Origin: an uncultured Bacilli bacterium
GTDB taxonomy: Bacteria; Bacillota_I; Bacilli_A; RF39; UBA660
Length of the DNA stretch: 35,368 nucleotides
Assembly (NCBI GenBank): GCA_947627435.1
Contig: CANQWB010000012.1
Span: forward strand, 1-35,368
Direction of reading: 5' to 3'
This document shows positions 6,601 through 10,655 of this stretch, one piece after another. The position numbers and the translations under genes are program-made. Positions within the stretch are counted from its first letter, which is position 1. Every line of letters begins with the position of its first letter. The notes under the pieces are model-generated. The model had not been told where the DNA came from. It ran no database searches and worked only from the letters and a program-made list of their open reading frames with translations.

Positions 6601-6629
6601 TTGACAAAATTTGAATGCATAGATATACT
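6601..6629 (+). promoter_or_regulatory. Consensus promoter of the sortase gene
   Basis: TTGACA at 6601-6606 and TATACT at 6624-6629, spacer 17. The strong ribosome binding site GGAGGAG (6637-6643) follows, but the start codon lies 32 bases beyond it. Confidence 0.8.
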
Positions 6630-6675: not shown

Positions 6676-7416
6676 ATGAAAAGAAAAAGATTAATCATTA
6701 AAAATATTATATTCGTGTTTCTTATTGTAATATTTTCAGTTTCAACAGTGATTTTAGGTAACTATTTTATACAAATGTATCAGAATAAGAAAAAACATCA
6801 ATCACTTGTTAATAAGGTAGTACAAGTAGAGAAAAATTCTGGGCAGGAAGAAAGAGTTAAAATTGATTTTGAAACACTACACTCTATTAATAGTGATATT
6901 ATTGGTTGGATTCGTTGGAATCATAATAAGGTAAATTATCCTATTGTTCATACAAGTAACAATAATTATTACTTAACACATTCATTTGATAAAAAATATA
7001 ATCAATCTGGGACTATTTTTATGGATTACCGTAATACATCACTCGATAATCAGAATGTAGTTTTGTTTGGTCATTCTATGTTAGATGGTAGTATGTTTGC
7101 TTCCATTGCGGATGTATTTGAACAAGGATTTTTTGATACCAAAGATAATGATATTATTGAGATTATTGATACTAATAACACTGTATATCATTATCAAATA
7201 TTCAGTTACTATCGTATTGAAAAAGAGGAATACTATATAACTCCCGCATTTGCAAATAATCAAGAATATATGTCATTTTTAAATACTTTGAAACAAAGAA
7301 GTTATAAAGATTTTGGAATAGAGCTTTCTACCAATGATATTATTTTAACATTGTCAACATGTTATGGAATTGGTAACACATCACAACGTATGGTGGTTCA
7401 CGCAAAAAAAATATAA
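6676..7416 (+). CDS. srtB: Class B sortase
   Basis: A membrane-anchored transpeptidase that cleaves sorting signals and joins surface proteins to peptidoglycan. It has 246 aa. Residues 7-27 are the signal anchor. Catalytic residues are H133 in LFGHSM, C229 in TLSTC and R238 in QRMVVHAK, and the 225-229 TLSTC form with the long segment before it fits class B. The start is ATG 6676; an in-frame stop lies 12 bases upstream, so no earlier start exists. The following gene encodes its likely substrate. A strong terminator separates the two, so they are separately transcribed. Confidence 0.92.
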   Translation: MKRKRLIIKNIIFVFLIVIFSVSTVILGNYFIQMYQNKKKHQSLVNKVVQVEKNSGQEERVKIDFETLHSINSDIIGWIRWNHNKVNYPIVHTSNNNYYLTHSFDKKYNQSGTIFMDYRNTSLDNQNVVLFGHSMLDGSMFASIADVFEQGFFDTKDNDIIEIIDTNNTVYHYQIFSYYRIEKEEYYITPAFANNQEYMSFLNTLKQRSYKDFGIELSTNDIILTLSTCYGIGNTSQRMVVHAKKI

Positions 7417-7445
7417 AGATATTTGCATAAGGCAAATATCTTTTT
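7415..7445 (+). terminator. Rho-independent terminator after the sortase
   Basis: A 12-bp stem, AAAGATATTTGC (7415-7426) with GCAAATATCTTT (7432-7443), followed by T residues. It overlaps the stop codon. Confidence 0.9.
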
Positions 7446-7458
7446 GTAAAAATAATAA

Positions 7459-7489
7459 TTGACAAAAGAACTCGGGGGGGGGGTATACT
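7459..7489 (+). promoter_or_regulatory. Promoter with a poly-G tract in its spacer (putative phase-variable switch)
   Basis: A perfect -35, TTGACA (7459-7464), and a good -10, TATACT (7484-7489), are separated by 19 bases, of which the last ten (7474-7483) are all G. In this AT-rich window I saw no other G or C run longer than five. Homopolymer G or C runs between -35 and -10 are the classic switch for slipped-strand phase variation, as in Neisseria porA/opc and Bordetella fim. A tract of eight G would give the optimal 17-base spacer, so the copy sequenced here is probably in a weak or off state. Confidence 0.85.
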
Positions 7490-7514
7490 ATTATTGAAAG
7501 AAAGGAAAGTTGAA

Positions 7515-8897
7515 ATGAAAAGAATAAAAAAAATATTATTATCTACAATTGCTTTATTTGGAATGGTATTTATGACAAGTGGAGCAAAAGCGGCAGAAAC
7601 GGAATCTCAATTTATTGAAAATTTATGTGTTACGAAAGTAGAAAATCAATTTACTGTTCAGTTTGATGCCAAAAAAGAAATAAGTCTGACGAAATCTGAT
7701 GAAATAGGTTCTCGTATTGATATTGATGTATATGATAATCAAAACGATAACCATCTAATTTATGGACGCACATGTAATGATGGCATCTGTGATACTACCG
7801 TTACAAAAGTCATTGCAAAAAGTAATACATGTAGTATTCAAGAAGCTGAAGGAACTCTTGTTGATGGACAAAAGATTGCGAAAGGTGCAACTGTAGCAAG
7901 TTATAATACCATTATTTATAATAAAGAATCATTTGCAAATGCCGAAAATTTGATGATAGAAATTTCTATCTATGATGACAATGCAGATTGGGAAAGAATT
8001 GTCTACAGTGTAAAAGAACAAAAAATAGTAGCTATTTATAATGGACATGATATTACTCCTGCATTATATAACCGAATTGTGGAAAAATATGGTGAAGATA
8101 CTTTTGGATTTGGAGGATCAGAGACTAGTTTGTATCTATCTTATAATGTCAAATTATCAGAAGCTGAATATGCTTATACTACAATTGAAATTACCGATCT
8201 TGATAAAAAAACAGAAGCAGATATTGATAAAATTATGGCCGATATTGAAGCAGCTGTATCAGGCAAATCACTTAAAAGCGAATTATATGAAGAACACTAT
8301 ACCATTGACAAAGAAACTTTTAACAATATAAAAAATAATGGATATAAGATCGATTATGAATATAGAATTTATGATGAAGAAGCAAAACAAGAATATGTAG
8401 GATATGCGTGGACATTTGATGGAAGCCAAATGGCATCAAGTAATTATGATTTAAATTTACAACTTACAGTAGGAAGTAGTAAAAATCAAGAAACAATTGA
8501 ATCATTAGTTGCAGATAAAGAAAAAGCACTTGTTTTAGAATTTGCTCACCACGGAGAATTACCAAAAGGAACTAGTGTAAAAGTATATGTTGGAAACAAA
8601 TATAAAAATGGAGACTATGTAACATTATATTATTATAATGAAGAAACGAAAACATTAGAAGAAGCAGTAGCTAACATAGAAGTGAAAGATGGGTATGTAG
8701 AATTTGGATTAGAACATTGTAGTGAATATGTATTAAATATTTCTGCAAAACCAGAAGTAGTTGAAACACAAGAAGTAAATAAAGCTCCAAATAATGCACA
8801 AACATCAAGTATGAATGTAATATTCTATGGAGGATTATCTATAGTTTCATTATTAGGACTTACATATTTACTAGTAAGTAAAAAGAAACAAGCATAA
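7515..8897 (+). CDS. Cell-wall-anchored surface protein, likely sortase B substrate, phase-variable
   Basis: A 460-aa exported protein. The signal peptide is residues 1-27 (basic start, hydrophobic core, cleavage near GAKA-AETE). The C-terminus is a sorting signal: NAQTS (427-431), a hydrophobic helix, then the basic tail SKKKQA. NAQTS resembles the NPQTN motif used by class B sortases, and a class B sortase is encoded directly upstream. The middle carries acidic, beta-rich sequence with four cysteines in the first third. A C-terminal region, roughly 330-415 (ALVLEFAHHGELPKG to HCSEYVLN), looks like a domain common in gut Firmicutes surface proteins. The start ATG 7515 has AAAGGAAAG upstream; an in-frame TTG at 7494 sits at the predicted transcript start. 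Ligand unknown. Confidence 0.85.
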   Translation: MKRIKKILLSTIALFGMVFMTSGAKAAETESQFIENLCVTKVENQFTVQFDAKKEISLTKSDEIGSRIDIDVYDNQNDNHLIYGRTCNDGICDTTVTKVIAKSNTCSIQEAEGTLVDGQKIAKGATVASYNTIIYNKESFANAENLMIEISIYDDNADWERIVYSVKEQKIVAIYNGHDITPALYNRIVEKYGEDTFGFGGSETSLYLSYNVKLSEAEYAYTTIEITDLDKKTEADIDKIMADIEAAVSGKSLKSELYEEHYTIDKETFNNIKNNGYKIDYEYRIYDEEAKQEYVGYAWTFDGSQMASSNYDLNLQLTVGSSKNQETIESLVADKEKALVLEFAHHGELPKGTSVKVYVGNKYKNGDYVTLYYYNEETKTLEEAVANIEVKDGYVEFGLEHCSEYVLNISAKPEVVETQEVNKAPNNAQTSSMNVIFYGGLSIVSLLGLTYLLVSKKKQA

Positions 8898-8907
8898 TAA
8901 AATTTAA

Positions 8908-8938
8908 AAAAGATATTCGCATGAAGAATATCTTTTTT
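8908..8938 (+). terminator. Rho-independent terminator after the surface protein
   Basis: AAAGATATTC (8909-8918) pairs with GAATATCTTT (8926-8935), 7-base loop, then T. Its T-run runs directly into the cwlD promoter region. Confidence 0.85.
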
Positions 8939-8939
8939 T

Positions 8940-8947
8940 CATATATT
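8940..8947 (+). promoter_or_regulatory. CATA-type -10 upstream of cwlD (possible sporulation sigma site)
   Basis: CATATATT sits 7-10 bases upstream of the ribosome binding site AGGTGA, where the -10 must be. It resembles the mother-cell sigma -10 pattern CATACAAT known from Bacillus sigma-E. GCAT at 8919-8922 is a weak -35 match. The 17 bases 8931-8947 are identical to those before the LysM gene at 23882. Confidence 0.4.
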
Positions 8948-8962
8948 GAATTAGGTGAATTT

Positions 8963-9655
8963 ATGCTAAGATATAAGTTAGGGACACTTTTATTATTAGT
9001 GTTTGGAATATTTAGTTTTTATTTTGTCTCAATCGGTGCAGAAGAAAATGAATTTCCTTTACTAGGAAAAGTGATTTATATAGATCCTGGTCATGGTGGG
9101 GCCGATCCTGGTGCTATGTACAAAAATATAAAAGAGGCAGATTTAAATTTAAAAATCAGTGAAAAATTGGAAGAAAAATTAGTTTCATTGGGTGCAATTG
9201 TTTATTTAACTCGTTATGGAGATTATGATTTATCAGTAAATCATACAATCAATCGCAAACGGAGTGATTTATCTAGAAGAGGTAATATTATTAATCGATC
9301 CGATTGTGACTTATTTTTGTCGATACATTTAAATGCTGAAGAGTCAGGTCAATGGCGTGGGGCTGAAGTTTATTATGACGATATTCATCCAGAAAATGAA
9401 ACCATTGCAAAAATTATACAGGCACAACTGAAAAAATATTTAAACAGTAAGCGTAATATAAAAAAAACAGACGTTTTATATCTACAAAAACGTATTGAAA
9501 GGCCGGGAGTTTTAATTGAATCTGGATTTTTAAGTAATAGTAGTGATCGTTATTTATTGATTCAGGATGAATATCAAGCTAAAATTGCAACTGCAATTAC
9601 AGAGGGTGTTTTGGAATATATTCGTACACGAGATTATTCCAAACAAGATAAGTGA
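8963..9655 (+). CDS. cwlD: N-acetylmuramoyl-L-alanine amidase CwlD (spore cortex)
   Basis: A zinc amidase (Amidase_3) of 230 aa with an N-terminal membrane segment (6-24), matching CwlD in size and layout. Zinc ligands are H44 (IDPGHGGADPG), E58 (IKEADL) and H122 (SIHLNAEES); the catalytic Glu is E186 (VLIESGFLSN). In Bacillus and Clostridioides, CwlD removes peptides from muramic acid as the first step of muramic-delta-lactam formation, which marks cortex for germination enzymes. The ATG at 8963 has GGTGAATTT upstream. A GerS/YdcC-like lipoprotein, a CwlD partner in Clostridioides, is encoded at 30941. Confidence 0.88.
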   Translation: MLRYKLGTLLLLVFGIFSFYFVSIGAEENEFPLLGKVIYIDPGHGGADPGAMYKNIKEADLNLKISEKLEEKLVSLGAIVYLTRYGDYDLSVNHTINRKRSDLSRRGNIINRSDCDLFLSIHLNAEESGQWRGAEVYYDDIHPENETIAKIIQAQLKKYLNSKRNIKKTDVLYLQKRIERPGVLIESGFLSNSSDRYLLIQDEYQAKIATAITEGVLEYIRTRDYSKQDK

Positions 9656-9670
9656 AACTTATCTTTTTTT
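9645..9670 (+). terminator. Rho-independent terminator overlapping the cwlD stop
   Basis: AAGATAAG (9645-9652) and CTTATCTT (9658-9665) with loop TGAAA that contains the stop codon, followed by a T run. The next promoter (TATAAT near 9692-9697) starts soon after. Confidence 0.85.
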
Positions 9671-9722
9671 ATTTGATTTTAATATAATGTGGTATAATTA
9701 TATTATAGTGGTAGGTGGAGAT

Positions 9723-10655
9723 ATGGCAAAAAGTAAAATATTTAAAACATTAGATGAACAATTAGAAATTTTAAAGTCAAAAGGTTTAGTGATCGAAGAT
9801 GAGGACAAGGCCCTTAATATTCTATTACGTGAAAATTATTTTTTTCTCAATGGTTACCGCCACATATTTATGCGTTCCATGAAAGATAATCAATTTATTG
9901 AGGGTACTACCTTTGATGAATTGTATGCTATGTTTTTATTCGACCGTAGATTGCGTAATATTATGTTTAAATATATATTGGTGATTGAAAATAATATTAA
10001 ATCTATTATTAGTTATCAATTATCAAGAAAATATGGTTTTAAAGAAAAAGATTATTTGAATCCTAAAAATTTTTGTCAAGATGGTTTAAAAACTAGACAG
10101 GTTCATGATGTAATAAATAAAATGAAAAGGCAGATACGTGTAAACGGTAAACAACATACAGCAACTATGCACTATATTAGTAATTACGGTTATATTCCAA
10201 TGTGGATTTTAGTGAAAGTTTTGTCTTTTGGAATTATCTCGGAATTATACCATATTCTAAAGACAGAAGATCAATTGAGTATTTCAGAAATTTACAATGT
10301 GGATGCTGAAACATTATCCATTTATTTAAATTTATTATCAAATTTTAGAAATTTATGTGCTCATGAGGAAATTTTATATGATCATAGGACACAACGTGTT
10401 ATACCAGATTGTAAATACCACTATTTATTATCAATCGATATGACCAATGATGAATATAATTTTGGTAAGAATGATTTATTCGCTATAATCATTATTATGA
10501 AACAAATGTTAAGTGAAACAGAATTTGTACAATTAATCAACGAAATTGGTTATGAAATTGATATATTAGCAGGAAAAGTAAATGTTGTACCTATCAATCT
10601 TATTTTAAATAAGATTGGATTTCCAGATAATTGGCGTGATATTAAAACTTTATAA
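9723..10655 (+). CDS. Abi family protein (AbiD/AbiF-like, Abi_2 HEPN RNase fold)
   Basis: A 310-aa protein of the abortive-infection Abi_2 family. The N-terminus (TLDEQLEILKSKGLVIED, then LLRENYFFLNGYRHIFM) is diagnostic, and the HEPN-type motif RxxxxH is seen at R209-H214 (RNLCAH). Such proteins are linked to phage defence and are thought to be ribonucleases that stop translation or phage growth. It is a single gene with its own promoter, lying between cwlD and an HtrA-like protease 11 bases downstream, with no antitoxin or other defence gene next to it. The ATG at 9723 follows GGTGGAGAT; earlier in-frame starts lie in cwlD. Confidence 0.85.
   Translation: MAKSKIFKTLDEQLEILKSKGLVIEDEDKALNILLRENYFFLNGYRHIFMRSMKDNQFIEGTTFDELYAMFLFDRRLRNIMFKYILVIENNIKSIISYQLSRKYGFKEKDYLNPKNFCQDGLKTRQVHDVINKMKRQIRVNGKQHTATMHYISNYGYIPMWILVKVLSFGIISELYHILKTEDQLSISEIYNVDAETLSIYLNLLSNFRNLCAHEEILYDHRTQRVIPDCKYHYLLSIDMTNDEYNFGKNDLFAIIIIMKQMLSETEFVQLINEIGYEIDILAGKVNVVPINLILNKIGFPDNWRDIKTL

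Follow-up and report, generated by a model that had tools for sequence, protein, structure and literature searches.

Why does a bacterial promoter carry a run of ten guanines between its -35 and -10 hexamers? We analyzed such a promoter in a 35,368-base stretch of DNA (hereafter the window) on contig 12 of a draft assembly of 1.21 Mb (55 contigs, 87% complete), from an uncultured, reduced-genome Bacilli-type bacterium of an apparently commensal group. The run (G10) could be a slippage-prone switch, a fixed part of the promoter, or an accident of chance or assembly. Comparison of sequences within and between genomes makes it highly probable that the run serves a surface-protein gene as a slipped-strand contingency element within the promoter spacer, and that it is one unit of a genome-wide repertoire.

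A poly-G promoter upstream of a putative sortase-linked surface protein

The tract sits between recognizable -35 and -10 hexamers, and the 19-base spacer ending in ten G that an initial annotation had described between TTGACA and TATACT is correct in every coordinate (Table 1). The same annotation saw no other G or C run above five bases, which holds across the full window: of all 35,368 bases scanned, only those at 7474-7483 form such a run. The three matches to G8 in the window overlap and all come from this one tract, against a mean of 0.07 in dinucleotide shuffles. The promoter has no match in Rfam, whose hits in the window are limited to a tRNA and a 16S rRNA; the start of the 16S rRNA gene lies at the contig end (34768-35368). 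We also considered a G-quadruplex and rejected it by reasoning, as a two-tetrad intramolecular fold with three one-base loops would need one base more than a lone G10 provides.

Table 1. Features of the surface-protein locus, in window coordinates
Feature	Position	Strand	Basis and context
Sortase's promoter-like site, TTGACA-17-TATACT	6601..6629	+	Pattern scan
Class B sortase gene, directly upstream	6676..7416	+	PF04203; TIGR03064; also upstream in congener (L041)
Hairpin and T run between sortase and surface gene	7417..7446	+	-10.6 kcal/mol, z -4.1
-35 hexamer TTGACA	7459..7464	+	Sequence; identical hexamer in congener's orthologous promoter (L041)
Promoter spacer, 19 bp (AAAGAACTC + G10)	7465..7483	+	Sequence; congener spacer 18 bp
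G10 homopolymer, proposed slippage site	7474..7483	+	Sequence
-10 hexamer TATACT, abutting the tract, without TG extension	7484..7489	+	Sequence
Shine-Dalgarno-like GAAAGGAAAG	7500..7509	+	Sequence; ATG at 7515
Secreted surface protein gene, 460 aa	7515..8897	+	Signal peptide; ortholog in congener G003
Sorting-signal-like C-terminal region (NKAPNNAQTSSMN, hydrophobic helix, KKK tail)	8778..8894	+	Ortholog; model
Terminator-like hairpin 3' of surface gene	8906..8940	+	-12.1 kcal/mol, z -6.0

The protein encoded behind the tract matches no Pfam family, and its AlphaFold model is beta-rich and of low confidence (pLDDT 55). In that model a C-terminal hydrophobic helix spans residues 444-459, with the tail KKKQA. 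The protein and its ortholog in G003 are conserved at their ends and divergent in the middle, and NKAPNNAQTSSMN near the C-terminus is identical between the two. The upstream sortase matches TIGR03064 at 185.7 bits (cut-off 153.75), placing it in class B. The signal peptide, hydrophobic helix, KKK tail and class B sortase agree with the earlier description of a signal-peptide protein with a C-terminal sorting signal beside a sortase, and the gene at 7515 has the signal peptide, anchor-like C-terminus and sortase neighbor of a surface structure.

The sortase's promoter-like site has the same hexamers as the tract promoter at the normal 17-bp spacing, without a G tract. The hairpin and T run that follow the sortase gene, terminator-like on the minus strand only according to a pattern scan, probably separate the sortase and surface-gene transcripts. 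Since stable hairpins with T runs follow both genes, the surface gene is probably a monocistronic unit that depends on the G-tract promoter. Two genes downstream of it lies an Abi_2 (abortive-infection-like) gene (9567-10652).

Poly-G tracts are abundant in the genome and recur across bacteria

Although unique within the window, the tract belongs to a genome-wide set of about 39, which corrects the scale of the original observation. The source genome contains 39 runs of G9-G11 against 0.28 expected (Markov estimate for runs of at least 9, whole genome), an excess over chance of more than 100-fold, and the lengths are tightly clustered, with 31 of the 39 being G10. In the 261 kb around the tracts the run spectrum is bimodal: 36 runs of length 5, three of 6, none of 7 or 8, six of 9, 31 of 10 and two of 11. 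Tract counts are 33, 12, 11 and 8 in the congeners and 0-14 in the remaining genera of the family; elsewhere in the class, most families have 0-3 and one has 7. MutS is present in the genome, so nothing obvious marks the lineage as a mutator.

We searched other genomes with the pattern TTGACA-N6-10-G9-N0-4-TATAHT, using the reversed pattern as a control. In the class, 23 of 395 genomes carry the pattern, with 49 matches in all; in a phylum draw that overlaps the class draw, 18 of 392 genomes carry 32 matches. The reversed control has none in either. A collection of genomes from 84,980 species holds at least 119 stretches with the pattern, and the matches listed include Clostridia, Bacilli, Saccharibacteria, Selenomonadaceae, Streptobacillus, Helicobacter and others. 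Among these listed matches, 63 of the 87 first genes after the tract (72%) encode a signal-like N-terminus, compared with 134 of 531 (25%) other open reading frames at the same loci (odds ratio 7.8, p = 4e-17). The commonest assembled spacers among the matches listed are 18 and 19 bp, with 19 foremost, a length that the geometry of the pattern itself favors.

Tract length varies between otherwise near-identical sites

The genomes compared represent one per species, so tract lengths were compared between species or paralogs, each assembled length being a consensus in which a homopolymer can be mis-sized. At the window locus there is a single ortholog, in congener G003 (62% identity; L041), whose promoter reads TTGACA-8 nt-G10-TATACT with a sortase likewise upstream; the tract is G10 in both species and the spacer 18 rather than 19 bp. 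Elsewhere length does vary. Genome G016 has eight promoters of the form TTGACAAATATGC-Gn-TATCCT with almost invariant flanks, in which n is 9, 9, 10, 11, 11, 13, 14 and 14, and G033 and G377 have promoter copies whose sole difference is n. Two leader tracts in congeners G002 and G004 (L077 and L087) follow an identical 75-bp sequence but measure G10 and G9, respectively. A near-allelic pair at contig ends of G003 (L064 and L051; 98.7% identity over 236 bp) also differs as G10 versus G9; this is weak evidence, as the difference could lie between strains or between tandem paralogs. Since near-identical promoters and leaders differ in n, tract length changes much faster than the flanking bases. 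The comparison across relatives that the initial annotation had proposed thus reveals length variation among promoter copies and leaders, with the window's ortholog staying at G10.

Coding tracts point in the same direction. In the source genome, a G10 at L031:3992-4001 (contig 18) places an Acyl_transf_3 gene out of frame, with the frame running on for 305 codons in another phase. The gene is apparently a contingency locus of the translational kind, and is the strongest sign within the source genome that tract lengths change. In G018, the genes of a surface-protein family have tracts of 9-12 immediately downstream of the start codon, and only some of these genes are in frame. Judged by their reading frames, the tracts in both genomes would be the classical translational form of contingency. 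Separately, a region of about 47% GC in a contig of 27% GC (L039:1713-2560, contig 47 of the source genome) resembles an IS256-type transposase by eye, and two G10/C10 runs lie within or close to the coding frame.

We weighed these data against a fixed structural element, in which the promoter, weakened by a long, stiff, underwound spacer, is activated by a regulator or by supercoiling, as with MerR-type regulators on 19-bp spacers, and in which length is under selection without switching. The 19-bp spacer is indeed suboptimal and the commonest bacteria-wide among the matches listed, the ortholog retains G10, and the G10 mode in the source genome is tight. However, the window spacer lacks the dyad or inverted repeat that a MerR-type operator would need, the near-identical G016 promoters span spacers of 16-21 bp, and the lineage's coding-frame and leader tracts are unable to play such a role. 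We therefore consider a fixed element unlikely. A neutral homopolymer arising by chance is very unlikely: one G10 by itself proves little, but the more than 100-fold excess, the near-perfect flanking hexamers, the conservation in the ortholog and the enrichment upstream of secreted proteins all speak against it. An artefact of poly-G read ends in two-color sequencing, or of mis-assembly, is the least credible of these disfavored readings and extremely improbable, since, although the assembly is a draft of 55 contigs with several tracts near contig ends, tracts occur at homologous sites with both flanks conserved in several species, appear in independent projects and in the named isolates Streptobacillus notomytis and Helicobacter sp. 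16-1353, and have no reversed-control counterparts.

Proposed effect of slippage on the promoter

If the tract is a contingency element, as we favor, it would gain and lose single Gs during replication. Such changes would alter the spacer length (19 bp here) and how the two hexamers are rotated relative to each other, and with both of these promoter strength would change between cells in graded, reversible steps. Slippage in living cells, its effect on transcription, and any assignment of a high-expression length are what we infer from these comparisons. The initial proposal of a phase-variable spacer driving a surface protein finds good support in the congener's tract, the length variation in G016, the absence of reversed matches, the enrichment for secreted products and the out-of-frame G10 gene. 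Its ranking of expression levels, with G8 high, G9 intermediate and G10 low, assumes a 17-bp optimum and is not supported: 19 bp is the commonest spacer among the matches listed, and G tracts have an unusual helical geometry. In Moraxella catarrhalis uspA1, an adhesin gene with a G(n) tract upstream of its open reading frame, transcript level follows n and the high-expression length differs between strains (PMC7302503).

Leader tracts of pilin-like genes are predicted to form terminator-like hairpins

Some 30 pilin-like genes in the source genome (L009-L038), and fewer in its congeners (L048-L075 in G003; L076-L092 in G002 and G004), are each preceded by a promoter, then a hairpin in the leader and a tract of G9-G12, with about 30 copies of the leader tract in the source genome and 74 in five genomes. 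The promoter is sigma-70-like, with a -10 that starts about 74 nt upstream of the tract. The predicted leader hairpin closes on AAAC in 95% of cases (mean z -3.1 versus mononucleotide shuffles). After it come the tract, a loop that is usually 2-5 nt long, the sequence CCC(C)TC and a run of T. For this second segment, the predicted fold is a stem like that of an intrinsic terminator; the G run is its 5' arm, and pairing extends into the U run. A second promoter lies downstream of the leader hairpin in 16 of 64 leaders. The genes behind the tracts mostly start with MKKKGFTLIELLAVIV, an N_methyl pilin motif, or with MKKKGFATSAILYT.

RNAalifold found no compensatory changes in 61 leaders, and a G arm cannot covary, so the predicted hairpins rest on single-sequence folding. 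The poly-G leaders have no match in Rfam, which did detect a T-box in L024. On the folding model, a terminator-like hairpin would lie about 62 nt into the leader with the tract as its 5' arm, and tract length may tune termination, setting read-through past the hairpin as a phase-variable attenuator. If leader tracts act in this way, they would offer one more route for slippage to set gene expression. By the genes that lie behind them, the roughly 39 tracts would mainly control pilin-like surface proteins.

Several neighboring loci extend this picture of the leaders and promoters. Variant poly-G leaders precede a Fic-domain protein (L015:4100-4849) and a 389-aa protein (L035:2830-3996) in the source genome, taking the leader type beyond pilins. 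Four tandem short pilins adjoin a valS-like gene at L016:3517-5805 (contig 4), two of them with TTGACA-7 nt-G10-T-TACAAT promoters; in the homologous cluster of G003, the contig ends exactly at the tract (L050). G003 also encodes tandem peptides of 32-40 aa (MEKYVEAELEM.TF.AED.ITTS...; L051:1-2966 and L064:2046-2225), each behind a TTGACA-G9/10-TATACT promoter, with a radical SAM/SPASM peptide-maturase-like gene downstream. These peptides are possibly phase-variable RiPP precursors.

A retroelement-like signature in the pilin variable domain

At the 3' ends of ten pilin genes in the source genome (L011, L012, L017, L018, L024, L025, L026, L029, L032 and L036), the encoded C-terminal GLWxW...GARLIK domain is hypervariable. 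Codons ending in C or T occupy 74% of positions in this domain compared with 39% in the gene body (p = 1e-21), a codon signature known from the targets of diversity-generating retroelements. The source assembly yielded no reverse transcriptase. In G001, a prophage-like region (L231:4232-7878, contig 2) has a gene encoding the same domain at its C-terminus (GLWLW...GARLLK), followed by some four to five template-like copies in an array and then a reverse transcriptase. From this arrangement, the region looks like a multi-template diversity-generating retroelement whose variable domain also occurs in the bacterial pilins described here. If the pilin domains are such targets, some of these pilins would combine expression switching with sequence diversification. 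A multi-mode contingency system, joining promoter spacing, reading frame, leader attenuators in about 30 pilin-like genes and retroelement-like diversification of some pilins, is a tentative extension that we judge possible but rather doubtful.

Discussion

Poly-G slippage switching has usually been described in pathogens, the promoter tract of the Mycoplasma hyorhinis lipoprotein genes is poly-A, and the tracts of Campylobacter and Helicobacter lie mostly in coding frames. In Neisseria porA and fetA, a poly-G or poly-C tract lies between the -35 and -10 elements and spacing sets promoter strength (PMC3899988; PMC5320596). The window shares with these genes a homopolymeric G/C spacer tract at a surface-protein promoter; unlike them, it belongs to an unrelated Gram-positive-type bacterium, encodes a putative sortase-linked protein, and has a tract that abuts the -10 hexamer. 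The uspA1 tract resembles the window's in being poly-G at a surface gene, but is placed upstream of the open reading frame and not specifically in the spacer (PMC7302503), and the leader-type tracts of the source genome may be its nearer counterpart. M. hyorhinis, a reduced-genome relative of Bacilli, has contingency repeats in the promoters of its variable lipoprotein family (cited in PMC3899988). It thus resembles the window in having promoter repeats at surface-protein genes, and differs in its tract base and in its lipoproteins, where the window's lineage has poly-G at sortase-linked proteins and pilins. Campylobacter and Helicobacter phasomes comprise many homopolymer tracts in small AT-rich genomes (PMC6321876; PMC2823697). 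The source genome is likewise small and AT-rich with many tracts, but these lie mostly in promoters and leaders.

G/C tracts in promoter spacers are already known from porA and fetA, and the window adds a further case from an unstudied lineage. The poly-G repertoire stands out for its size and variety, and a literature search of partial coverage found no paper on it for these bacteria. Taken with the length variation among relatives, this repertoire makes it very probable that slippage raises and lowers the expression of many surface genes in the lineage. With about 39 tracts in an uncultured Bacilli-type bacterium of small genome, and 8-33 in its congeners, such switching is testable with existing metagenomic reads.
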